This document shows, piece by piece, positions 45,649 to 57,327 of a DNA stretch of 58,012 bases. Position 1 is the stretch's first letter; each line of letters begins with the position of its first letter. This stretch comes from an uncultured Pseudomonadota bacterium. Lineage in GTDB: Bacteria; Pseudomonadota; Gammaproteobacteria; Steroidobacterales; Steroidobacteraceae. Where the stretch lies: assembly GCA_903839465.1 (NCBI GenBank), contig CAIMCI010000004.1, positions 1-58,012 of the forward strand, read 5' to 3'. The notes beneath the pieces are model-generated. The model was not told the origin of the DNA. It searched no databases and worked only from the letters and a program-made list of their open reading frames with translations. A program made the translations under genes and the position numbers.

Positions 45649-46533
45649 TCAGGCGCTGCCTTCCTTCTTGGTCGCATAGGTCACGCTCTTCGACAGCTTC
45701 GCCACCGATGAGGTGGGGTCGACCAGCAGCCCATACACCTGCATGTTGTGGGCGTGGCCGAGCTGATGCAGCGCAAACTGCACCTGCATCGCCGAGGTGC
45801 GCCCCGCCGCGTCCTGCGCCGCGTTCACCGCCTCCTTCACGCACTTGAGCGCAAACAGCGGCTGGGTGGCGATGCGCTTGGCGAGTTCCAGGCTGAACTC
45901 CTGGAGCTTGTCGACAGGCACCACGTGGTTGACCATTCCAAGGCGATGCGCCTCGGCAGCGGTCCACCAGCCGGAAGTGAACAGCAGCTCCTTCGCTTTG
46001 CGCACGCCCAGTTCCCACGGATGATTGAAGAACTCCGCGCCGGCGAGCCCCATGTTCACGGTGTTGTCCATGAACAGCGCGTCTTCGCTCGCGATGATGA
46101 TGTCGCAGGGCCACACGAGCATCAGGCCACCGGCGATGCACTTGCCATGCACCGCGGCGATGGTCGGCTTCGCAAAATTGCGCCAGCGCTCGCTGAAGCC
46201 GATATAGATCTCCTTCTCGCGCGCCATCTGTCCCTCGGCACCGGCGCAGCCAAAGCCGCACCACGTTCCGACTACGTCGTACGGGGACATGTCGACCTTG
46301 CGCGGATCCTCGTGCACATCGTGGCCGGCCGAAAAATCCTTGCCGTTCGCCGCGAGGATCACGACCTTGACATTGTCATCCTGCGCCGCGCGGTCGAACG
46401 CCGCATTGAGCTCGTAGAGGAGCTTCGTGTCCTGGGCGTTTCGCGCATTCGGGCGATTGAGCACGATCCGCGCGACGTGGTCGGCCGGCGCCTCATAGAG
46501 GATATGTTGGAAGTCCGTCGTCACGTCGGTCAT
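45649..46533 (-). CDS. Enoyl-CoA hydratase/isomerase-family protein
   Basis: A 294-residue crotonase-fold protein. IVLNRPNARNAQDTKLLYEL and VVILAANGKDFSAGHDVHED give the first oxyanion-hole strand. IAAVHGKCIAGGLMLVWPCD gives the second, and the later EFFNHPWELGVRKAKELLFT holds the expected acidic position. The SAGHD form and a C-terminal extension separate it from plain FadB hydratases; hydration or CoA-thioester cleavage are both possible. ATG 46533 follows GGAG. It is 42 bases downstream of acyl-CoA ligase 2 in the same run. Confidence 0.9.
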   Translation of the reverse strand: MTDVTTDFQHILYEAPADHVARIVLNRPNARNAQDTKLLYELNAAFDRAAQDDNVKVVILAANGKDFSAGHDVHEDPRKVDMSPYDVVGTWCGFGCAGAEGQMAREKEIYIGFSERWRNFAKPTIAAVHGKCIAGGLMLVWPCDIIIASEDALFMDNTVNMGLAGAEFFNHPWELGVRKAKELLFTSGWWTAAEAHRLGMVNHVVPVDKLQEFSLELAKRIATQPLFALKCVKEAVNAAQDAAGRTSAMQVQFALHQLGHAHNMQVYGLLVDPTSSVAKLSKSVTYATKKEGSA

Positions 46534-46575
46534 GCTGGTCTCCAGGAATGGGGAATTGGGGCGTCGCGCGCAGTC

Positions 46576-48162
46576 TTACTGCTGCGCGGCGTCGCGATAC
46601 TCGTCGCGCAACTTGCGCTTGAAAAGCTTGCCCGTTGGCTCGCGCGGCAGTTCCGCGCGAAAATCGATCTGGCGCGGCAGTTTCACGCGCGACAGCCTGG
46701 GACCCAGCCATTCGGTGATCTCGGCTGCCAGCGCGGGGCCCGCGTCGGCCATGTCCTTGGGCTGCACGACCGCCACCACGCGCTCACCCATCTCAGGGTC
46801 CGGCGCGCCTATCACCGCAACGTCCAGCACCTTGGGGTGCATGATGATCAGGTTCTCGATCTCCTGCGGATAGATGTTCACGCCACCCGAGATGATCATG
46901 AAGCTCTTGCGATCCGTCAGGTACAGATAGCCTTCCTCGTCGAGCCAGCCAATGTCGCCGACCGTGATCCAGCCATGCTTGTTAAAGGCCTGACGGGTCT
47001 TGTCCGGGTCGTTGTGGTAGCTGAACGTGCGATGGGTCTCGAAGCAGATGTGACCCTGGCTGCGTGCGGGCACTTCGTCGTCGTTGTCACCGCAGATGTG
47101 GACGACGCCGATCGCGGAACGCCCGACCGAGCCGGGGTGCGCGAGCCATTCGTCACTCCTGATGAACGTCACGCCGACCGCCTCGGAGGAGGCGTAGTAC
47201 TCCATGATCGCCTTGCCCCACCACTCGATCATGGCCTGCTTGACCGGTACGGGGCAGGGCGCTGCGGAGTGCACCGCGGTCTTGAGTGAACTCAGGTCGT
47301 ACCTGGAACGCACGGCCGCCGGCAGCGCCAGCAGGCGGATGAAATGGGTCGGCACCCACTGGCTGTCGGTGACGCGGTACTTCTCTATCATCGAAAGCGC
47401 CGCTTCCGCGTCGAACTTTTCCATCACCACGACCGTACCGCCGAGCCGATGAGTCGCCATCGAAAAGCGCAGCGGCGCCGCGTGGTACATCGGCGTCGGT
47501 GACAGGTAGACCGTGTCCGGACCGTAGCCGAACAAATCCCGGTTCATGTCGGCCATCGGATGTGGTCCGTCGATCGCAGGATTGGCGGGCAGGCCGATGC
47601 TGACGCCCTTGGGACGGCCCGTCGTACCTGACGAGTAGAGCATCTCGGTACCCGCCCGCTGATCGGCGATCGGCACGCTGGGCATCGCGGAAAGCGCTGC
47701 ATCCAGGTCGAGTACACCGCTAGCGCCGAAGCGCAGTTGCGCGGTCGAGGGTGCGAGTGCCAGCACCTCGTCCAGAACGCCGGCGAGTCCTTCGAAGCCG
47801 AACAGCAGCTTCGCGCCGCTGTCCTCGAGGATATAGACGAGCTCCGGCACGGTTAGCCGATAGGGGACCGGAACATAGACCAGCCCGGCGCGCTCCACCC
47901 CGAACGCGAGCGGCAGATACAGCGGATGGTTGTCCAGGCAGATCGCGACCGTATCGCCGATCTGCAGCCCGCGGCTGCGCACCAGCTGGGCGACACGGTT
48001 GCTCACCGCATCGAGTTCGGCATAAGTGGTTACCTGCCCGGACTCGCCGAGGATGATCGCCGGTTTCGAGGGGTGCGCTCGCGCGTGGACGCACGGGTGG
48101 AAGCCGTCGCCTGACAGTCCCGGCGTCGCTGGATCGGCTTGCGCCTGGGAATCGGTAACCAT
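46576..48162 (-). CDS. Acyl-CoA ligase 2 (AMP-binding, ANL family)
   Basis: A 528-residue paralogue of acyl-CoA ligase 1. It has the P-loop MLYSSGTTGRPKGVSIGLPA, YYASSEAVGVTF, the hinge YLYLTDRKSFMIISGGVNIY and the catalytic Lys in REPTGKLFKRKLRDEYR. The N-terminal half has diverged more than the C-terminal third, which is almost the same at both DNA and protein level. ATG 48162 has GGGGAG upstream. It lies upstream of the enoyl-CoA hydratase, with operator site G 58 bases before its start. The two ligases may act on different intermediates of one route. Confidence 0.9.
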   Translation of the reverse strand: MVTDSQAQADPATPGLSGDGFHPCVHARAHPSKPAIILGESGQVTTYAELDAVSNRVAQLVRSRGLQIGDTVAICLDNHPLYLPLAFGVERAGLVYVPVPYRLTVPELVYILEDSGAKLLFGFEGLAGVLDEVLALAPSTAQLRFGASGVLDLDAALSAMPSVPIADQRAGTEMLYSSGTTGRPKGVSIGLPANPAIDGPHPMADMNRDLFGYGPDTVYLSPTPMYHAAPLRFSMATHRLGGTVVVMEKFDAEAALSMIEKYRVTDSQWVPTHFIRLLALPAAVRSRYDLSSLKTAVHSAAPCPVPVKQAMIEWWGKAIMEYYASSEAVGVTFIRSDEWLAHPGSVGRSAIGVVHICGDNDDEVPARSQGHICFETHRTFSYHNDPDKTRQAFNKHGWITVGDIGWLDEEGYLYLTDRKSFMIISGGVNIYPQEIENLIIMHPKVLDVAVIGAPDPEMGERVVAVVQPKDMADAGPALAAEITEWLGPRLSRVKLPRQIDFRAELPREPTGKLFKRKLRDEYRDAAQQ

Positions 48163-48219
48163 TGCACTCCCCTCGAGCGTCGGAATGCAGAATACGGCCG
48201 AAATCCTACGTTCGCAATG

Positions 48220-48237
48220 ATTTAATTGGTCATTTAA
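48220..48237. promoter_or_regulatory. Operator site G upstream of acyl-CoA ligase 2
   Basis: On the minus strand TTAAATGACCAATTAAAT, very close to site I (TTGATTGACCAATTAAAT). It lies 58 bases before the ligase start. Confidence 0.7.
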
Positions 48238-48288
48238 TAAATACCGTCCGAGAGCCCGGTTCGAAGCGCCGAAAGGGCAGCCGAGCCG

Positions 48289-49062
48289 TCAGGCGGTCCG
48301 CGTGCCGCCGTCCACGAGCAGCTCGGCACCCGTGACGTAGGCGGCCTCGTCGCTGGCGAGATAGACGACGGCATTGGCGACGTCCACCGGCTGTCCGATC
48401 CTGCCCAGCGGCACGTTGCCGACCAGTGTCTGGCGGACCTGCTCGGCGCTGCCGGCGGCCCCCGCCAGCGCGCGCAACGTCGAATCCAGCGCCCAGGTCT
48501 GGATCATGCCCGGCGTCACCAGGTTGACCCGGATACCCTGTGCGGCGAGCTTCGCCGCGGCCGAGCGACTCATCGCAATCACGGCCGCCTTCGCCGACGA
48601 ATAGCCGATGTTGTCGGCGGCGCCGCCATGCGCCATGGTGCTGGCGATGTTGACCATGGCGCCGCCGGCGCGCATGAGCGCCGAGCAGGCCCGCATGCCG
48701 AAGAACACGCCTGACGAGGTCGCGGCGAAGCACGCCTGCCAGCCCGCGTCGGACAGGTCAGCGACCGAGCCGGCCGGCCCGGAATAAAACGCGGTAACCA
48801 GGATATCGAGGTGGCCGAAGCGCGCGACCGTGTCGGCCGCCAGGGCGTTCCAGCTCTCAGGCGATGTGGCATCCAGCTCGCCAAAGGAAACGGCCCCGTC
48901 GACGCCAGCAAGGCGGCTGACGACTTCCTCGGCACGCGAGCGTGACTTGTCCGCGCAGACGACACGCGCGCCCTCCTCGAGAAAGCGGCGGCAGATCTCG
49001 GCGCCGATGCCGCCCGCACCACCCGCAACGATCGCCACTTTGCCAACCAGTCGCACTGTCAT
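48289..49062 (-). CDS. Short-chain dehydrogenase/reductase
   Basis: A 257-residue classical SDR. The cofactor motif is VAIVAGGAGGIGAEICRRF (residues 9-27); Asp at the end of strand 2 (VVCADKSRSR) suggests NAD(H). The catalytic Ser141 (IASTMAH), Tyr154 and Lys158 (YSSAKAAV) are present, as is the substrate loop LVTPGMIQTWALDS. It probably oxidises a hydroxyacyl-CoA or secondary alcohol. The TetR gene lies just upstream in the same direction (69-base gap), so the two may be cotranscribed. Confidence 0.92.
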   Translation of the reverse strand: MTVRLVGKVAIVAGGAGGIGAEICRRFLEEGARVVCADKSRSRAEEVVSRLAGVDGAVSFGELDATSPESWNALAADTVARFGHLDILVTAFYSGPAGSVADLSDAGWQACFAATSSGVFFGMRACSALMRAGGAMVNIASTMAHGGAADNIGYSSAKAAVIAMSRSAAAKLAAQGIRVNLVTPGMIQTWALDSTLRALAGAAGSAEQVRQTLVGNVPLGRIGQPVDVANAVVYLASDEAAYVTGAELLVDGGTRTA

Positions 49063-49131
49063 CGATCGAGTCGCCCCTTGAAATTTAAACGCTGGAGCTC
49101 GGCCTCTGCCAGACGTGTACCCGCCGGACCG

Positions 49132-49833
49132 TTACTCGGATCGCATGCCCGACAGCAGGATCTCGTAGAACGCATCCGCGAAGTGGCGCACGAAGTCCTC
49201 GCCGAGTTCGGCGGTGCCGAGCGCCGAGGTGAGAATGCGCCGCCGCGCCGCCAGGTGATCCGCCGTACCCAGCATGATCAGGTACAGGTCCATCGGATCG
49301 ATCGGCCGCAGCGTCTGCTCGCGCACGCCCTGCGCGATCAGCTCCCGGTAGAACGAGACCACGCGCATCACATAGAAGTCCGAGATTCGCTTGGCCTCGG
49401 CGGCATCGGAGGCGTCGATCAGATGGTGCAGCAGCCGGTCGAGGTACGGCGCCTTCGCGTACGTCTTCACCAGCGCGCGCACGTGTAGCTTCAGCTTCAC
49501 GACCGCCGGAAAATCCATCACCAGCAGGCTGTGCAGCTGCTTTACCGCCTGGCCCGAGCTCCATTCCAGCAACGCGCTGAGCAGCCCATGCTTGCTGCCG
49601 AAATAGTAGCTGACGAGGGCGGCGCTCAGGTTGGTTCGCGCGGCCACTTCGGCGAGCGAGAAATCCAGACTGCCCCGCTCCATCAACAGCGCATCGGCAG
49701 CAGCGAGCAGCGCGTACTCGGTCTCCGTGTCGGCAGTCTTGCGCTTGGGGAGCTTGGCGGGCTTGGGCTGCTTCGCGGCCTTGGCACGCACTCGCTTGGT
49801 CCGAGTGACGATGGAGCTGCTTCGAGTGGCCAT
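49132..49833 (-). CDS. TetR-family transcriptional regulator, candidate regulator of the island
   Basis: A 233-residue repressor. After a basic Lys/Pro-rich leader (about 30 residues), the DNA-binding helix-turn-helix spans about 48-95: EYALLAAADALLMERGSLDF, SLAEVAARTNLSAALVSYYF, GSKHGLLSALLEW. The C-terminal half is the variable ligand-binding domain (VSFYRELIAQGVREQTLRPI), resembling TetR proteins that sense acyl-CoAs or hydrophobic compounds. It is the only regulator in the window. The upstream strand reads TTGATTGA directly before its ATG (49834-49841), a half of the nine-site dyad, so autoregulation and control of the island are proposed. Confidence 0.88.
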   Translation of the reverse strand: MATRSSSIVTRTKRVRAKAAKQPKPAKLPKRKTADTETEYALLAAADALLMERGSLDFSLAEVAARTNLSAALVSYYFGSKHGLLSALLEWSSGQAVKQLHSLLVMDFPAVVKLKLHVRALVKTYAKAPYLDRLLHHLIDASDAAEAKRISDFYVMRVVSFYRELIAQGVREQTLRPIDPMDLYLIMLGTADHLAARRRILTSALGTAELGEDFVRHFADAFYEILLSGMRSE

Positions 49834-49841
49834 TCAATCAA
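49834..49841 (-). promoter_or_regulatory. Operator half-site at the TetR start codon
   Basis: TTGATTGA on the minus strand abuts the TetR ATG. It equals the left half of the island dyad; the second half is not preserved. Confidence 0.4.
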
Positions 49842-50046
49842 CCTTTGCCGCCGGTACAGGACCGCAACTCGAACCGCCCGGGTCCTTCAGACCTGGCGTG
49901 CTCATGGGCGTGCGGGCGTGAGCGCATCTTAGCCGAAGCGCGAGCCGATTGCCTGATCGTCCAGGTTGGCCCCCATACCCGCTGCCGCCATGCCGCGCCG
50001 GGCCCTGGCAACGGCTCGCCCTGGACACGCCACGAGCGCCGGCAGA

Positions 50047-51156
50047 TCACGGGGTGGGCGGCTGGGCGCCCCAGCGGCGCAGCAGTTCCTCACCCTCCAC
50101 GCTCGCTCGCGCCGCGCCCGGCGTGCGCGAGAAGCGCGGCGCCGGCGCGGCATGGGCCACGCCGTCGATCTCGACGTAGGTGCCGCGCGCACTCAGGTGG
50201 TCATTCTGGGCGGTCTCGGTGATGGCGAGCACCGGCGCGAAGCACGCGTCGACTCCGGCAAAGATCCGGCACCATTCGTCGCGGGTCTTCTGCGCGAAGA
50301 TCCCCGCGAACTCCCGGCCTCGTGACTCCCACTCGGCCACGTCGTACTGGGTGGCATGGTAGCTGTCCGGCGCACCGATTGCGCGCAGCACTTCGCGGTA
50401 GAAGCGCGGCTCGAGCGCACCGACCGCGACCTCGCGGCCATCGGCGCACGTATAGCAGCGATAGAACGGCGCATCACCGCCGAGCATGTTCCGGCCCGGA
50501 TCGAGCGACAGCGAGCCCGCGGCCGTGAATCCCGCGGCCACCGACATCATCGACGCCGTGCCGTCCACGATCGCGGCATCGATGACCTGGCCGCGCCCGG
50601 ATCGCTGCCGCTCCCAGAGCGCTGCCATGATGCCGAACGCTGCAAACAGCGAACCGCCGCCGTAGTCGCCGACGAGGTTGAGCGGTGGTACGGGACGCGA
50701 CCCCACCGCGCGAAAATGCGCGAGCGCACCGGCCAGCGCGATGTAGTTGAGGTCATGGCCCACCCGGGGCGCGAGGGGCCCAGCCTGCCCCCAGCCGGTC
50801 AGCCGGGCGTACACCAGTCGCGGGTTATCGGCGCACAGCACGTCCGGGCCCAACCCGAGCCGCTCCATGACGCCCGGGCGGAACCCCTCGATGACCACGT
50901 CGGCCAGCGCCACCGCGGCGCGGCAGCGCGCAACGTCCGCCGCGTCCTTGAGATTCGCGGACAGGCCGTGCCGGCCGCGGTCCAGGACCGGATTCGGAAA
51001 CTCATTGCCCTCGGGCCGCTCGAAGCGAAGCACCTGCGCACCGAGGTCCGCCAGCAGCATGGCGCAGTGCGGAGCTGGCCCCAGCCCGGCAAATTCTACC
51101 ACCCGCAGACCGACCAGCGGTCCCGTGGGATGCTGACCGATGCCGACGTTCGTCAT
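50047..51156 (-). CDS. CoA-transferase family III protein, alpha-methylacyl-CoA racemase-like
   Basis: A 369-residue CaiB/BaiF-fold enzyme. The N-terminal GLRVVEFAGLGPAPHCAMLL, the motif NPRLVYARLTGWGQAGPLAP and GHDLNYIALAGAL (His134, Asp135), then LVGDYGGGSLFAAFGIMAAL (acidic Asp164) and later GGDAPFYRCYTCADGREVAV and EWCRIFAGVDACFAPVL match alpha-methylacyl-CoA racemases much better than CaiB or Frc. Racemases invert the C2 methyl centre so that the acyl-CoA dehydrogenase can act. Hence the island probably treats 2-methyl-branched acyl-CoAs. Site H lies 67 bases upstream. Confidence 0.85.
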   Translation of the reverse strand: MTNVGIGQHPTGPLVGLRVVEFAGLGPAPHCAMLLADLGAQVLRFERPEGNEFPNPVLDRGRHGLSANLKDAADVARCRAAVALADVVIEGFRPGVMERLGLGPDVLCADNPRLVYARLTGWGQAGPLAPRVGHDLNYIALAGALAHFRAVGSRPVPPLNLVGDYGGGSLFAAFGIMAALWERQRSGRGQVIDAAIVDGTASMMSVAAGFTAAGSLSLDPGRNMLGGDAPFYRCYTCADGREVAVGALEPRFYREVLRAIGAPDSYHATQYDVAEWESRGREFAGIFAQKTRDEWCRIFAGVDACFAPVLAITETAQNDHLSARGTYVEIDGVAHAAPAPRFSRTPGAARASVEGEELLRRWGAQPPTP

Positions 51157-51278: not shown

Positions 51279-52583
51279 TCAGGCCGAAGGGGTCACGAGT
51301 GCGGCCCGCGACACCGCCGCGGCCCGGGAGGCAAAGAGGTAATGAACCGCCGCCCAGAGCGCGGCCGCCGGAACCAGCCACAGGCACGCCTGTCGCAACG
51401 AGTCGCTGCCGGCGCTGCCGGCCAGGACATCGCTCAGCCTGCCAATGACGAGCGGGCCGACGCCCAGCCCGGCCACATTGACGACGACGGACAGAATCGA
51501 GGAAGCCGTGCCACGGGCGTTGGCCGGCACCATGCCGTGCAGCGCCGCAAGGCTCGGACTCAGGAACGCAGCACCCAGGCCGCAGGGCAGGAACAACCAC
51601 AGAAAGGCGCCCGTCCGCGTGGCAGCCGTCAAGGCCAGCGCAATGCCGACGGCGACCAGGACACTGGTCGCAGCAGCGACGATCAGGCAACCATTGGGCG
51701 AGCGACGCGCGAACCGGTTGGCGAGCTGGCCCGCAACCACCAGGCCGATCGCGCCACCGATACCAGAAGCGCACGCGAGCCATGTGCCCGCCTGGGCGAG
51801 CGTTGCGCCGTGGGAGCGAATCATCACCGACGCGCTCCACGAGGTGATGGAATAGCCGACGAATCCTGACAGCGCGAGCGCTGCCAGCAACTGACGAATC
51901 GCCGGCTGGGACCACATGATGTGCCAGACATCGCGCAGCGAGCGAAGCGTCTCGGATCCCGTGCTGGCGCCTTCCTGCGCACCGCGCACCGGCTCCGGCA
52001 CGGCGACCCGGAACACGAGCGCAAGCAGCAGCCCCGGCACGCCCGCCAGCACCAGCACCCAGCGCCAATCCATGTACTTCGTCAGAAGGCCGCCGGCAAG
52101 AAATCCTACGAGAATGCCGATGTTGTTGCCGGACGAGTAGATCGCCATCGCGCCGGCCCGCTTCGCCGGCTTGTAAAGGTCCGAGATCATCGAGTGCGCG
52201 GCCGGGTTGCAGCCGGCTTCGCCGACGCCTACACCGACCCGCGTGAGCGCAAGCAGCCAGAAGTTCTGCGCAGCACCGGACAGCGCCGTCATGACGCTCC
52301 ACAACGCAAGCGACACCGAGATGACCCTACTACGGGCGGACCGATCCACCAGTCGCCCGAGCGGTACGCCGGCAAGCACATAGAAGAACGCGAATGCCGT
52401 GCCGGTCAGCAAGCCGAGCTGTGCATCGCTCAAAGCCAGGTCGCGTTTCACCGGCTCCTGCAGGATCGACAGGATCTGGCGATCCAGGAAGCTCACCGCG
52501 TAGGCCGCGGTCAGCAGTCCGAGGGTCAGGGCGCGGCGGTACGCCGTGGCTGGCTGCGCCGTGCTGGTGATACTCGTGGACAT
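51279..52583 (-). CDS. MFS permease 3
   Basis: A 434-residue 12-span transporter. RRALTLGLLTAAYAVSFLDR, then LGRLVDRSARSRVISVSLAL (the GxLaDrxGRkxxl-like loop) and GVGVGEAGCNPAAHSMISDL (motif C region). The GVGEAG-x-NPA motif is typical of the Spinster/hexuronate-like MFS group. ATG 52583 follows GGAG and is preferred to 52613. It is the last gene of the amine dehydrogenase operon, 45 bases after the nitroreductase, and probably imports the product of amine oxidation. Confidence 0.87.
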   Translation of the reverse strand: MSTSITSTAQPATAYRRALTLGLLTAAYAVSFLDRQILSILQEPVKRDLALSDAQLGLLTGTAFAFFYVLAGVPLGRLVDRSARSRVISVSLALWSVMTALSGAAQNFWLLALTRVGVGVGEAGCNPAAHSMISDLYKPAKRAGAMAIYSSGNNIGILVGFLAGGLLTKYMDWRWVLVLAGVPGLLLALVFRVAVPEPVRGAQEGASTGSETLRSLRDVWHIMWSQPAIRQLLAALALSGFVGYSITSWSASVMIRSHGATLAQAGTWLACASGIGGAIGLVVAGQLANRFARRSPNGCLIVAAATSVLVAVGIALALTAATRTGAFLWLFLPCGLGAAFLSPSLAALHGMVPANARGTASSILSVVVNVAGLGVGPLVIGRLSDVLAGSAGSDSLRQACLWLVPAAALWAAVHYLFASRAAAVSRAALVTPSA

Positions 52584-52628
52584 GGTGCGGTCTCCGTTAA
52601 GGGTCTGGTCCACGCGCGGCGTGATTGC

Positions 52629-53315
52629 CTAGCGGTGAAACGTAGCGAATTCCTCGACGGGTGCACGCCGGGAACGCAGGCCGTTGATGGGCGCGTCTGC
52701 GTCGCGATAGCCGATCGCCATACCGCAGAACAGCATCAGCTCTGGCGGCGTGCCGAGGAACCCGGTGATCTCGGCGTGCCAGCTCGACCATGCCTCCTGT
52801 GCGCACGTATCCAGACCCTGCTCACGCGCGAGCAACATCAAGCTTTGCATCAGCATCCCGATGTCGGCCCATTGCGGCGGCCCCATCTGGCGGTCGACGA
52901 GAAAGAACAGCGCGGCTGGCGCACCAAAAAAGTCGTAGTTGCGCAGGAACTGCCGCACGCGGCCAGGCCGGTCGTCGCGCACAACGCCGATCGTCCGGAA
53001 CATGTCCTCACCCACCTGAAAGCGCCGCGTGCGATACGGCTCGCCGAGGCTGGGCGGGTAAACGTGATACTCGGCCTTGCCGCCCATCGGGTTCCCCACC
53101 AGCAGCGGTTCGAGCATCGCCCTGAACTTCGCCATCGAATCGCCCAGCAGTACGTGCACGACCCAAGGCTGCAAATTACCGCCGGACGGCGACCTGCTGG
53201 CCACCTCCAGCAGCTGGCGCAGCACTGCTTCGTCCACGGGGCGCGGCGCGAACGCGCGACACGAGAATCGAGAGCGGATCGCGTCGGTAACAGACGAAGC
53301 TTCGTCAGCGATCAT
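52629..53315 (-). CDS. Nitroreductase-family flavoprotein
   Basis: A 228-residue FMN-dependent NAD(P)H oxidoreductase. AIRSRFSCRAFAPRPVDEAV, RQLLEVASRSPSGGNLQPWV (FMN-phosphate loop) and the later LMQSLMLLAREQGLDTCAQE and MLFCGMAIGYRDADAPIN are classical. ATG 53315 has GGAGA upstream; the longer frame from 53474 lacks homology. It sits in the amine dehydrogenase operon between the diheme cytochrome and MFS 3. Reduction of nitro, quinone or enone groups is possible; some members dehalogenate. Confidence 0.88.
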   Translation of the reverse strand: MIADEASSVTDAIRSRFSCRAFAPRPVDEAVLRQLLEVASRSPSGGNLQPWVVHVLLGDSMAKFRAMLEPLLVGNPMGGKAEYHVYPPSLGEPYRTRRFQVGEDMFRTIGVVRDDRPGRVRQFLRNYDFFGAPAALFFLVDRQMGPPQWADIGMLMQSLMLLAREQGLDTCAQEAWSSWHAEITGFLGTPPELMLFCGMAIGYRDADAPINGLRSRRAPVEEFATFHR

Positions 53316-53484
53316 GCACAAGTCTCCACGGTTTATCGCCGGTTCCGGGGTCCGATAACGGCCAGGGGTCCACAGCAAATGCACTCGACATCGCATGTCA
53401 CCGGGTTCAACGACTGCGACCCGGTGCGTCTCTTGGGGGACCGACTTCGCGGCGTGTGCTTCGAGCGCCGCCATGCGGTGAGGC

Positions 53485-54303
53485 TCACGGATTCAGCGAG
53501 TTCAGATAATCCACGATCGCCTTGCGATCGGCGGGATCGGCGACACCGCCGAAGGACATCATCGTGCCGGGCACTTTTGCGGCCACGTCCTGCAGAAACG
53601 AGTCGATTTCTGCCGCGGACCAGACGATACCCGCGTCGCGCATCGCCTTGGAGTACGGGTATTTCGGTGCGCTGCCCGAGCGCCGCCCGATGACGCCGCG
53701 CAGATTGGGCCCGATCGAATGATCGCCGCTCGGCGACACCGAATGGCAGGCGCCGCAGATCGCAAATGCCGCTGGCGGCTGGACTGGCGGCGTAGCAGCG
53801 ACTGTGGTGGAGGTAGCTGACTGCGCGACCAACATGAACACCGGCGTGTCCGTAGTGGCTGCGACCAGCGAGAGAACCTGCGCGCGTGCCGCCGTGCTCG
53901 CCGAGATGGGCGTGCGGCGCAGCTGCGCGATCTCGTTGGCTTCATACGGCGCAAAGTTTACCGGCAGGTCGGCCGGATCGTAGGTCGTCACGATCCAGTT
54001 CAGTACGTCCGCCAGGTCCCGGTTCGACAGCATCGCCTGCGCGGAGCCCGGCACCTGAGCAAGGAACGCGCGACCTTCCGGCACCGCCAGGTACTTCGCG
54101 ACGTGCCCGCGCAGCGGCGGCACTATCCCCGGATAGCCGGAGCCGTCCGCCATGTGACAGCCGGAGCAGTTGATCGTGTAGTTCAGGCTGGAGGCGTAGC
54201 CCGTGGATGCCACGGCACCCAGCGCTGCACGCTGTCCGGGGACGCACGCCACCACGAGCACCGCCACGGCTGCAAGGAATCGTCCCAACCCCGCGCTCAT
54301 CAT
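53485..54303 (-). CDS. Diheme cytochrome c, candidate electron acceptor of the amine dehydrogenase
   Basis: A 272-residue exported protein with two c-type heme domains. A signal peptide lies in GLGRFLAAVAVLVVACVPGQ. Domain 1 carries CSGCH (NYTINCSGCHMADGSGYPGI) and SAQAMLSNRDLADVLNWIV. Domain 2 carries CGACH and is class-I c2/c550-like (GPNLRGVIGRRSGSAPKYPY, FGGVADPADRKAIVDYLNSL). ATG 54303 with AGGGG upstream is preferred to the TTG at 54339. TTQ dehydrogenases usually pass electrons to amicyanin, azurin or a monoheme cytochrome; this two-domain protein may replace them. It is shorter than MauG and does not look like a MauG peroxidase. Confidence 0.85.
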   Translation of the reverse strand: MMSAGLGRFLAAVAVLVVACVPGQRAALGAVASTGYASSLNYTINCSGCHMADGSGYPGIVPPLRGHVAKYLAVPEGRAFLAQVPGSAQAMLSNRDLADVLNWIVTTYDPADLPVNFAPYEANEIAQLRRTPISASTAARAQVLSLVAATTDTPVFMLVAQSATSTTVAATPPVQPPAAFAICGACHSVSPSGDHSIGPNLRGVIGRRSGSAPKYPYSKAMRDAGIVWSAAEIDSFLQDVAAKVPGTMMSFGGVADPADRKAIVDYLNSLNP

Positions 54304-54328
54304 GGCTGGCGCCCCCTTCAGCAAGCGC

Positions 54329-54901
54329 CTACTCGGCAACCGAGAGTTGCTTGGAGATCGTGCAGTTGTAGCCCGTCGGCTGGGCCGAGCCGTAGCACCA
54401 GTTCACGTACGGCGAGCGCTGTAACCGGTAGCGAGGCGTGGAGCCTTCCTCGCGGTGGCACACACAGTCGTAGCAGCCCGTCGTGCCGCAGCAGTCGTGG
54501 TAGGACATCACGTAGGACTTGCCGTCGCCGGGGTTGCGGCACGTACCCACCCATGCGATGGAGGATGCCGAAGTACCCGGGGGGCACTTGCTGGACGTGC
54601 CACCGCAGCAGGCGCACAGGCCGCCACCCATCGAACAATAGGCCCAATAGTCGCAGCTCTTCGGATTGTTCCAGTCCGGATGCTCGGCCATCCACTGCTT
54701 AGGATCCATGGCGTCCTTGCCAGCGTTGTTCTCCGCGGCGTCGGCTTCCGTGAAACGGGCCACGGGCAGCAGCGGAAGCAGCGTCGCGCCTACCATCGCG
54801 CCACCCAACTTGCCGAGGAACGAGCGCCGCCCGCTCCTTTCCGCCAGCGTGCGGCTCGATGCCTCGAACATGCTGTCGAACCAGTTCTTATGCTTGCTCA
54901 T
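54329..54901 (-). CDS. mauA: TTQ amine dehydrogenase light chain (MauA/AauA-like)
   Basis: A 190-residue small subunit. The N-terminal Tat-like signal has twin Arg at 25-26 (RSGRRSFLGKLGG). The Cys-rich core contains CDYWAYC, LCACCGG, KCPPGT and SYHDCCG. The two Trp that form tryptophan tryptophylquinone in methylamine dehydrogenase correspond to Trp117 (AWVGTC) and Trp168 (VNWC), and the Asp76 equivalent is Asp136. The Asp32 equivalent is Gly92 (CSMGGGLC instead of C-A-V-D-G-F-L-C). ATG 54901 begins the Tat motif; the longer frame from 55012 is out of homology. The operon order heavy chain, MauE, MauD, light chain is standard. Confidence 0.9.
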   Translation of the reverse strand: MSKHKNWFDSMFEASSRTLAERSGRRSFLGKLGGAMVGATLLPLLPVARFTEADAAENNAGKDAMDPKQWMAEHPDWNNPKSCDYWAYCSMGGGLCACCGGTSSKCPPGTSASSIAWVGTCRNPGDGKSYVMSYHDCCGTTGCYDCVCHREEGSTPRYRLQRSPYVNWCYGSAQPTGYNCTISKQLSVAE

Positions 54902-54911
54902 GATCCGTCCT

Positions 54912-55541
54912 CTAAATCGCGTTTTGCGTCTCAGCGCGCTGATGCTCGCGCTCCATGTAGTCCTGGATGGAGCCGACACCGAGGCGCTTCGCCTCGAACA
55001 GGCTCTCCACATGCTCGCGGGTATTGCACAGACCCTGGGCCACCATCACGCCCTGCTCATCGAGCAAGACACCATACGGTAGCCGCCCAATCTGGTACGT
55101 CGTTCCGAGTTCCTGGGACAGCACGTACGGGTGCCCGCTCAGGCCCTTCGCGAGCCAGAATTTCTTCTGCACTTCCAGTTCGCCGTCGCTCGCAAACACC
55201 AGTCGCAACCAGGATGTCTCGGAGGCGCCGATCGACTTCAGCGCCGGGAGCAGCTTCGCGCACACCGGGCACTCGGGGGCCACAAACATCACCAGCGTGC
55301 TGCGACCCGCAGCGTCCGCGCCACCAATCACGACCTCCTGGGCGTCCACCGAGCGCAACTTGAACTCCGGTGAGCGTTCGCCAATCTTGATCCCGCGGCT
55401 GATCATCAGGGCACCCGGCGCCGGACCAAACCGCGCGTGCAGCACACCGACCTGCCGGACCAGCGCCAGCATCACTACCGCCATCGCGATCATGAACACC
55501 CACTGCAAGACCAGCACCACCACGAGCGTCGTATCCATCAT
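54912..55541 (-). CDS. mauD: MauD-like thiol-disulfide protein for light-chain maturation
   Basis: A 209-residue membrane-anchored thioredoxin-fold protein. One N-terminal transmembrane helix (TTLVVVLVLQWVFMIAMAVV) is followed by a periplasmic domain with GERSPEFKLRSVDAQEVVIG and the redox site FVAPECPVCAKLLPAL (CPVC, residues 91-94). MauD helps form the disulfides of the light chain. The start overlaps the MauE stop by four bases. Ten bases separate its stop from the light-chain ATG. Confidence 0.9.
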   Translation of the reverse strand: MMDTTLVVVLVLQWVFMIAMAVVMLALVRQVGVLHARFGPAPGALMISRGIKIGERSPEFKLRSVDAQEVVIGGADAAGRSTLVMFVAPECPVCAKLLPALKSIGASETSWLRLVFASDGELEVQKKFWLAKGLSGHPYVLSQELGTTYQIGRLPYGVLLDEQGVMVAQGLCNTREHVESLFEAKRLGVGSIQDYMEREHQRAETQNAI

Positions 55542-56083
55542 GTAGTCCCGCCCGTTGCGAAGGGTTCGGTAAAGAGCCGGTTGGCTGCCGCGTAGACCAA
55601 CGCGGACAATGCGACGCCAGCAAGTACAGTCACAAGATCAAGGCCACCTAGCGATCGCGGTGCAGACGGTAGCGCCAACACCAGTGCGAGCGCCGCGAGC
55701 AGCAGGTTGCGGTACACCAGCGGGTAGCCGACCGTCTGCCGAAGACTGCCCCAGTTGCACCCGCAGTCGAGCAAGGTATTGCCGCGAAGCAAATTGCCGG
55801 CCATCGCCGCTGCATACAACAGCAGGATGCCCGAGATTACCCCCGCGCGCAGCGCATGCGCGACAGGGACCACGCAGACGACGAGCGCCCCGGCTTCACC
55901 GAGCATTACCGCGAGCGCCGCGACCAGTGCTATCGGCCCGCGCCCCAGCGGCAAGCCACGCCCATAGGCCGCAACCGTCGGCACGAACGAATCGAAGCGC
56001 AATGCCTTGTGGGCAAGCGCCGCTGCAAACAGCGCGATAAACGCGCCGCGCAGAACGAGTTCGACGGCCGGGTCAAGGTACAT
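55538..56083 (-). CDS. mauE: MauE-like membrane protein
   Basis: A 181-residue integral membrane protein with four to five hydrophobic spans (VELVLRGAFIALFAAALAHK, ALVAALAVMLGEAGALVVCV and ALRAGVISGILLLYAAAMAG). The conserved LLRGNTLLDCGCNWGSLRQT contains the Cys pair of the family. MauE works with MauD in assembling the light chain. It is 12 bases downstream of the heavy-chain gene and overlaps mauD. No mauF gene is present. Confidence 0.88.
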   Translation of the reverse strand: MYLDPAVELVLRGAFIALFAAALAHKALRFDSFVPTVAAYGRGLPLGRGPIALVAALAVMLGEAGALVVCVVPVAHALRAGVISGILLLYAAAMAGNLLRGNTLLDCGCNWGSLRQTVGYPLVYRNLLLAALALVLALPSAPRSLGGLDLVTVLAGVALSALVYAAANRLFTEPFATGGTT

Positions 56084-56095
56084 CGCGACTGCCCG

Positions 56096-57262
56096 TCACT
56101 CGACCGGCTGGAGCACGGTGGGCATGCCCGGAATCGTCAGCTGCCGGAGCAGTTTGCCACTCGCCTCGTCATAGATCCCGACGTTGAGCTGCCATGTGGC
56201 GCCAGCGTAGACGTAGGGCTTGCTGTCCTGGCTGACGGCGATGTGCGATACGGGGTCCTTGGTCTTGATCCTGCGCAGCAGCTGCTTGGACTTCAGGTCA
56301 TAGATCCAAACCTCAGACGCATCCCGGCCATGAAAGTCGTAGCCGCTTAATTTCGGCTTCAGATCCGACAACTGCATGGGGACGTAGAGCCGACCGAGAC
56401 TCTTGTTTGCGGCCAGCGACTGCATCCAGGCACCCGGTACCCAGGTGTTGGCGCCCTCTTTCTTGGCCACCTTCCAGACGGGCAGGAACTTGAGCTCGGG
56501 TCCCGAAACATCGACGGAGTGGACGTCGCCGTAATGCGAGACGAAGTACCACACGTCACCCGAACGGGCTCCCGAACCATTTACCGGATCGTTGTCAGCG
56601 TCAAAGAATCCGGGATAGCGCTTGCGCGACGCTTCATGGCCAGTCTCGTCGAGATTGACCGCGAGCAATCCGCCGTCGCCGCAAAGCGAGATGAAGCGGC
56701 GATTGCCCGCCGGCATCACGTGCGCACAGCCGGTGGTTTCGATTTCTGCAGCGAATTTATCGCTTCGCAAATCGGTCACGCCAACCGTCGACGCAGGCGT
56801 CATCAGCTGCGCGAGGAAAAACGAGTCGTCGTCGGTCAGACCCGTCAGCGTCGGATCCGGCCAGCCCTTGACCGTACGCGGTGGCGTCTCGATCTCCAGT
56901 CGCGGCATGAACGTGTGCTTGTCGTACTTGGTGACGGTGTCCGTGCGCTTGCCACGGAACCCGCGCGACATGTACGCGCCGACACTGACGATGTCATTAC
57001 CCGAGTGGGGAAACTCGAGCTTGATGCCTTCCCAGCCTGTCTCGATCGCGCCCATGTTCTCGCCGGTCTCGGCGTTGTACAGGACCATCTTGTTGTAGTT
57101 GCCGAGCTGCAGGTCGTTGACCCATACCCAATGCTCGCTCGCCGGGCGGTCGGGCACGCGGACATTTTCTACCGGTTGGCCCAGCGCAGGTGCTGTTACA
57201 CATCCCAGCATGAGGGTCGTCAGCAGCGACCGAGACAACCGCGTCATACCTTCGCGCATCAT
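56096..57262 (-). CDS. mauB: TTQ amine dehydrogenase heavy chain (MauB/AauB-like)
   Basis: A 388-residue exported beta-propeller. The signal peptide is in MTRLSRSLLTTLMLGCVTAP (cleavage near ALGQP). The mature start RPASEHWVWVNDLQLGNYNK and repeated blade motifs (AETGENMGAIETGWEGIKLE, RVYVPMQL-like LGRLYVPMQLSDLKPK, LKSKQLLRRIKTKDPVSHIA) match amine dehydrogenase large subunits, slightly nearer to aromatic amine dehydrogenase by length. ATG 57262 has GGGGAG eight bases upstream; other near ATGs are possible. It is the first gene of the operon, with operator site I 66 bases upstream. Confidence 0.88.
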   Translation of the reverse strand: MMREGMTRLSRSLLTTLMLGCVTAPALGQPVENVRVPDRPASEHWVWVNDLQLGNYNKMVLYNAETGENMGAIETGWEGIKLEFPHSGNDIVSVGAYMSRGFRGKRTDTVTKYDKHTFMPRLEIETPPRTVKGWPDPTLTGLTDDDSFFLAQLMTPASTVGVTDLRSDKFAAEIETTGCAHVMPAGNRRFISLCGDGGLLAVNLDETGHEASRKRYPGFFDADNDPVNGSGARSGDVWYFVSHYGDVHSVDVSGPELKFLPVWKVAKKEGANTWVPGAWMQSLAANKSLGRLYVPMQLSDLKPKLSGYDFHGRDASEVWIYDLKSKQLLRRIKTKDPVSHIAVSQDSKPYVYAGATWQLNVGIYDEASGKLLRQLTIPGMPTVLQPVE

Positions 57263-57327
57263 GACCATTACTCCCCGGTGGATCTTGAACCCAAGCCTAG
57301 TCGTGCGTTGGGTCCAAGTCAATTAGG

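Follow-up and report, generated by a model that had tools for sequence, protein, structure and literature searches.

Glycine in place of the active-site aspartate Asp32 in a TTQ-type amine dehydrogenase light chain and the absence of Asp32 from other branches of the family

The stretch of DNA analysed here (the window, 58,012 nucleotides of contig CAIMCI010000004.1 from an uncultured Steroidobacteraceae bacterium, assembly GCA_903839465.1) contains a gene whose product resembles the light chains of TTQ-dependent amine dehydrogenases, with a glycine where methylamine dehydrogenase (MADH) has the active-site aspartate Asp32 (Asp84 in the aromatic amine enzyme, AADH). This raises the question of whether the gene encodes a sound member of the family, whether the glycine is peculiar to it, and what the loss of Asp32 would mean for the enzyme.

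The light chain gene and its operon

The reading frame runs from 54901 to 54329 on the minus strand, encodes 190 amino acids with no inner stops and scores 134.2 bits against PF02975 in a profile search (cut-off 25), and the solved light chains of both MADH and AADH align to it by phmmer. Its product carries SGRRSFLG, an RR signal-like motif which we take to resemble a twin-arginine signal, near the N-terminus; an alternative in-frame start at 55012 would overlap mauD. A Foldseek search with the AlphaFold model of residues 60-190 (pLDDT 79.2, pTM 0.69) gave 32 matches at E <= 0.001, all of them AADH or MADH light chains with AADH first, and on this model the fold is that of the AADH/MADH light chains and is not in doubt. 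The gene and the codons discussed below are:

54329..54901, minus strand: light chain of the TTQ type, MauA/AauA-like, 190 amino acids (PF02975, phmmer)
54626..54628, minus strand: codon GGT for Gly92, at the position of MADH Asp32 and AADH Asp84 (alignment)
54620..54622, minus strand: codon for Gly94, at MADH position 34 (alignment, survey)
54551..54553, minus strand: codon for Trp117, equivalent to Trp57, TTQ precursor (alignment, survey)
54494..54496, minus strand: codon for Asp136, equivalent to Asp76, active-site acid (invariant in the survey)
54410..54412, minus strand: codon for Pro164, at the Asn104 position, a second conserved residue lost (alignment)
54398..54400, minus strand: codon for Trp168, equivalent to Trp108, TTQ precursor (alignment, survey)

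A preliminary description of this DNA had placed a glycine opposite Asp32, and the phmmer alignments bear this out: Gly92, in CSMGGGLC, faces the Asp of CSIDGNIC in MADH and of CAVDGFLC in AADH. It was also right that the cofactor tryptophans and Asp76 are retained (Trp117, Trp168 and Asp136 lie opposite Trp57, Trp108 and Asp76), and the numbering offset of 60, which it took to be constant, applies as far as Trp168 but becomes 59 at Tyr119 and Thr122 (Tyr178 and Thr181 of the window chain), both of which are likewise kept. The loss of Asn104 is a second change that the preliminary description did not contain. Cysteine is present at all 12 of the cysteine positions examined, and the LCxCCGG segment is retained as in AADH. 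Judged from its sequence, the reading frame encodes a TTQ-type amine dehydrogenase light chain in which Gly92 replaces Asp32.

On the minus strand the heavy chain, MauE, MauD, light chain and two-haem cytochrome c genes follow one another in an intact mau/aau-like operon, with further genes on the same strand beyond it:

56096..57322, minus strand: heavy chain, MauB/AauB-like (PF06433, 107.1 bits; start uncertain, first ATG codon at 57268)
56327..56329, minus strand: codon for a heavy-chain Gly, residue 332 counted from 57322, where most Asp32 enzymes have Lys or Arg (motif H-K/R)
55538..56083, minus strand: MauE-like membrane protein (PF07291, 49.1 bits, cut-off 27)
54912..55541, minus strand: MauD, thioredoxin-like accessory protein (TIGR02661, 212 bits, cut-off 188.6)
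53485..54339, minus strand: cytochrome c with two haem motifs, CSGCH and CGACH (profile match, CxxCH motifs)
52629..53474, minus strand: nitroreductase-family protein, 10 bases downstream of the cytochrome c
51279..52613, minus strand: MFS transporter
45649..51156, minus strand: CoA-transferase III, TetR regulator, SDR, acyl-CoA synthetase and enoyl-CoA hydratase

The two-haem cytochrome c is the likely electron acceptor, and the acyl-CoA genes are a possible downstream pathway. Among solved structures the heavy chain is nearest to that of AADH (151.8 bits; best MADH 115.9), as the light-chain model is, and the AADH of Alcaligenes faecalis (aauB/aauA) shares the TTQ residues and the Asp76 equivalent. 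It differs from the window, however, at MADH positions 32 and 104 (Asp and Asn against Gly92 and Pro164), at residue 34 (Phe against Gly) and in the heavy chain (H-K against H-G). The two do not cluster either, the window lying in a 38-row group and the A. faecalis enzyme (a row with the light chain only) in a 32-row group in a different part of the 98-row tree described below. MADH (mauB/mauA, Paracoccus) has the same light-chain fold and cofactor residues, and MauE and MauD stand beside the window chain too, but the window lacks the Asp32 of MADH and falls below the MADH equivalog cut-offs for both the light chain (174.1 against 196.85 bits, TIGR02659) and the heavy chain (117.9 against 454.45 bits, TIGR02658). 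P. denitrificans has amicyanin, MauG, MauF and MauJ, none of which is among the neighbours identified in the window.

The fused two-haem cytochrome c of the window (53485-54339) is also found in a Haliea MAG (L032, 2874-3653), while locus L185 has only a single-haem protein resembling the C-terminal domain of the window's cytochrome; members of one clade thus differ in their likely electron acceptor. The window's genome contains a second light chain (L001, contig C172) which keeps both Asp32 and Asn104; there the heavy and light chains adjoin without MauE/MauD between them and are followed by two cytochrome-like ORFs, and in L185, L034 and L170 MauE/MauD were likewise not found beside the heavy/light pair.

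Position 32 in relatives and its changes on the tree

Light-chain matches were found in 86 of 217 genomes from the window's family, 47 of 196 from its order, 14 of 369 from its class and 13 of 398 from its phylum, and further chains came from named genomes (42 loci) and two other families (matches in 22 of 107 genomes of one and 6 of 9 of the other). A plasmid search gave 31 records, of which 9 were sampled (their counted chains had eight Asp and one Cys at position 32), and viral contigs gave 2 pattern matches and 0 confirmed relatives. The 297 matching ORFs were reduced to 287 with at least 95 matched residues and then to 239 distinct light chains; the ten ORFs below 95 matched residues, including two from Thermomicrobium in which position 32 is Cys or Arg, were excluded. 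On the Thermomicrobium roseum plasmid (L199, 1-8131) there are three light-chain-like ORFs, two with Cys and one with Arg at this position, near a 596-amino-acid protein that contains a MauE domain. Three proteins of the same stretch, 403-456 amino acids long, had no Pfam match at E 0.001, and a heavy chain was not recognised there.

Of the 239 distinct chains, 205 have Asp at position 32, 16 have Gly, 12 His, 5 Ser and 1 Cys, in a non-random sample (window-like and family queries plus one Gly-type query) whose fractions are not natural frequencies. Position 32, which the preliminary description had treated as fixed, is thus not fixed in TTQ light chains: Asp32 is missing from 34 of 239 chains, the window chain included, and so does not define the PF02975 light chains. 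Trp57, Asp76 and Trp108, by comparison, were invariant (239/239), including in the 34 chains without Asp32. In MADH and AADH we take Asp76 to be the base that accepts the substrate proton. The earlier suggestion of a changed catalytic base is not supported, given the invariance of Asp76, which is present whatever residue occupies position 32. Among the loci sampled, at least 8 of the 22 genomes with Gly/Ser chains (the window's included) also have an Asp32 chain, which fits a division of labour.

Two 'quick' trees were made, a first of 107 rows and a second of 98 rows from light and heavy chains together, with the trait columns excluded and with rows lacking a heavy chain only weakly placed. 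The window falls in a four-row clade (support 100, 98-row tree) of which it is the sole Gly member, so that whether close homologues share the glycine, a question raised in the preliminary description, is answered in the negative. Its three clade-mates and nearest relatives (one of the same family, one Haliea MAG and one MAG titled Klebsiella) all have Asp32, and they keep Asn104, an Arg in the heavy-chain H-K/R motif and a larger residue 34 (Trp, Trp and Val). On the window branch Asn104 has become Pro, residue 34 Gly and the basic heavy-chain residue Gly. The MAG titled Klebsiella pneumoniae (L033) carries the operon, and since its kin in the tree are the Haliea MAG and the window's group its species label looks doubtful.

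A sequencing or assembly error, GAT read as GGT, would need only one A-to-G change, and no second copy of the gene was found, the closest aligned chain (L032) being 64% identical. Because Asn104, residue 34 and the heavy-chain residue all changed on the same branch, however, a single base error is unlikely, and with Gly also found in other lineages we consider that this reading can hardly be credited.

Gly at position 32 occurs in three separate parts of the 98-row tree, namely the window, a clade from one genus and a 19-row Gly/Ser clade, mostly from one related family, which has two Asp members. The His32 chains form one clade, and a lone Ser chain (L212, light chain only) is placed elsewhere. 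In the first tree of 107 rows a single clade for its 10 Gly rows was rejected (p-AU 8.2e-33), these rows having been picked by residue rather than from the tree and the test having been run after the tree was seen. At least 7 changes between Asp and non-Asp are needed in either tree, and the first needs at least 5 between Gly and not-Gly; such counts do not separate gain from loss. The two Asp32 chains within the Gly/Ser clade (L260 and L279) combine a small residue 34 with the absence of Asn104, a pattern that would fit a return of Asp or the earlier occurrence of the other changes.

The 98-row tree bears on whether the window chain has decayed into a non-catalytic form that makes no TTQ, leaving the complex inactive or in another role. 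That two near-invariant residues are gone, and that the window is the only Gly in its four-row clade, would agree with decay. The reading frame is nevertheless full-length, with its 12 cysteines, both tryptophans and Asp76, in an intact gene order; its end branch has a length of 0.55 against 0.40 for its sister, not a large difference, and Gly or Ser has been maintained in several genomes of other clades. Decay is improbable on this evidence.

Residues that change together with Asp32

Other changes in chains without Asp32 were counted at 33 positions, each of them conserved in 95% or more of the Asp32 chains. The window keeps 31 of the 33 and breaks only positions 32 and 104 (Asn to Pro), the latter of which we take to be occupied by Asn156 in AADH. 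Among the 21 Gly/Ser chains (window included) position 32 is broken in 21, 104 in 16, 119 in 2, 53 in 1 and 121 in 1 (a gap), with none broken at the other 28 positions; Asn104 is thus missing from 16 and retained by 5 of the 21, and it is missing from 4 of the 205 Asp32 chains. All 12 His chains are broken at 32, 104 and 119 and at none of the remaining conserved positions. Residue 34 is small in 34/34 non-Asp32 chains against 49/205 Asp32 chains, and in the heavy chain 144 of 162 Asp32 rows have Lys or Arg after a conserved His, against 0 of 24 others. These raw counts, taken over related sequences, overstate the covariation, and the heavy-chain column scans gave many associations that may merely track clade membership, of which only H-K/R was taken further.

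With correction for kinship, Asn104 was lost with Asp32 in 4 of 7 pairs and the opposite occurred in 0 (p 0.125) in one tree, and in the other 3.0 pairs went the same way, 0.2 the opposite way and 2.8 were tied (p 0.25). For residue 34 the values were p 0.0625 and 0.125 in the two trees, and for the absence of Lys/Arg from the heavy chain p 0.125 in both. Almost all comparisons of independent pairs thus point in one direction, with none reaching 0.05 at the median (p 0.0625-0.25). Asp32 is absent in separate branches, and Asn104 has frequently been lost alongside it.

The other chains without Asp32 (the Gly/Ser, one-genus Gly and His clades) share with the window Asp76, both tryptophans, a small residue 34 and, usually, the loss of Asn104, although they sit in separate parts of the tree. 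Unlike the window, the His clade has lost Tyr119 (12/12) and, in the rows inspected, Cys38. This clade (L037, L042, L049, L051, L052, L056, L064, L067 and L070-L073; Celeribacter, Gluconacetobacter, Nguyenibacter, Acidomonas, Kaistia and Devosia) has Ser for Asn104, Ile or Val for Tyr119, and an acidic residue aligned at Cys86. Cys38 and Cys86 presumably form a disulfide pair, and from its sequences the clade may be one disulfide short; it is a separate remodelling of the same pocket.

We also considered whether a carboxylate supplied from elsewhere, such as the Glu of a GWEG motif in the heavy chain (codon from 57031), leaves the chemistry unchanged. The motif is present in 4/4 members of the window's clade, and by phmmer its Glu aligns to an Asn beside a Phe in the AADH heavy chain. 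Three of those four, however, are relatives that keep Asp32, so the Glu did not arise to replace it, and the Gly rows of other clades that were inspected have no such motif. This Glu was rejected as a compensating carboxylate, and the wider reading is very improbable.

A remodelled pocket and its significance

A discussion passage in PMC7876137, with Jones 2005 among its citations, describes an Asp near the cofactor as strictly conserved across the tryptophylquinone enzymes and as acting in the first hydroxyl-Trp formation, and notes that in GoxA mutation of the matching Asp does not abolish the cofactor; the strictly conserved Asp in our survey of 239 chains is Asp76. The Asp32 named in the passages of PMC9850906 is unrelated, the passages of PMC4949571 and PMC4030948 hold no residue detail on Asp32/Asp84, and no report of variation at position 32 was found in the literature searched, most subscription papers being outside its reach.

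A role in cofactor formation leads to the alternative that Asp32 and Asn104 serve TTQ assembly, and that in lineages maturing the cofactor by some route other than MauG the pair has become dispensable and drifts with the substrate little changed. The role described for the conserved Asp in that passage of PMC7876137 would agree with this, as would the absence of CCP_MauG matches from the window's genome, where one may have been missed among the 421 contigs, and the matching of 3 ORFs by the MauG profile in 265 loci, many of which are short so that neighbours can be missed. Against it, the other light chain encoded in this genome, likewise with no MauG match, keeps both Asp32 and Asn104, and residue 34 and the heavy-chain residue change as well, so we regard the alternative as possible but doubtful.

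We take Asp32 and Asn104 to be pocket residues in MADH and AADH. The reading that we favour, with a probability of roughly 0.6, is of a TTQ enzyme that keeps Asp76 and in which the Asp32/Asn104 side of the pocket has been emptied, probably for another amine; of the earlier suggestions, a changed pocket or substrate remains plausible from the sequences. Active-site aspartates were reportedly found by Jones in 2005 to be critical for TTQ formation in P. denitrificans MADH, so that the loss of one could harm the cofactor, which weighs against this reading. The light chain and its AADH-nearest heavy chain would form a periplasmic TTQ-dependent amine dehydrogenase in which Trp117 and Trp168 would be joined as TTQ and Asp136, the equivalent of Asp76, would remove the proton from the amine adduct, the base role that Asp76 has in MADH/AADH. 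Electrons would leave through the adjacent two-haem cytochrome. One side of the predicted pocket, where most members have Asp32 and Asn104 together with a larger residue 34 and a basic residue of the heavy chain, would here consist of Gly, Pro, Gly and Gly, and has most likely been refitted to a different amine, probably one that is bulkier or differently charged. The oxidised product would then pass to acyl-CoA enzymes whose genes lie downstream on this strand, and these genes suggest its further use in the form of a carboxylic acid.

What makes the glycine interesting is less its own oddity than its place in a repeated and coupled loss. Tentatively, TTQ enzymes without Asp32 might be a recurrent functional class, arrived at independently in at least four lineages (the window, the one-genus Gly clade, the Gly/Ser clade and the His clade), in which the Asp32/Asn104 half of the active site would be dispensable for building and running TTQ and its removal would mark a change to another kind of substrate or half-reaction. 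The survey separates the two active-site aspartates, since Asp76 never varies and Asp32 does. Nature supplies Gly, Ser and His versions with which the roles of Asp32 and Asn104 can be probed, and the chains without Asp32 point to amine dehydrogenases with unexplored substrates.
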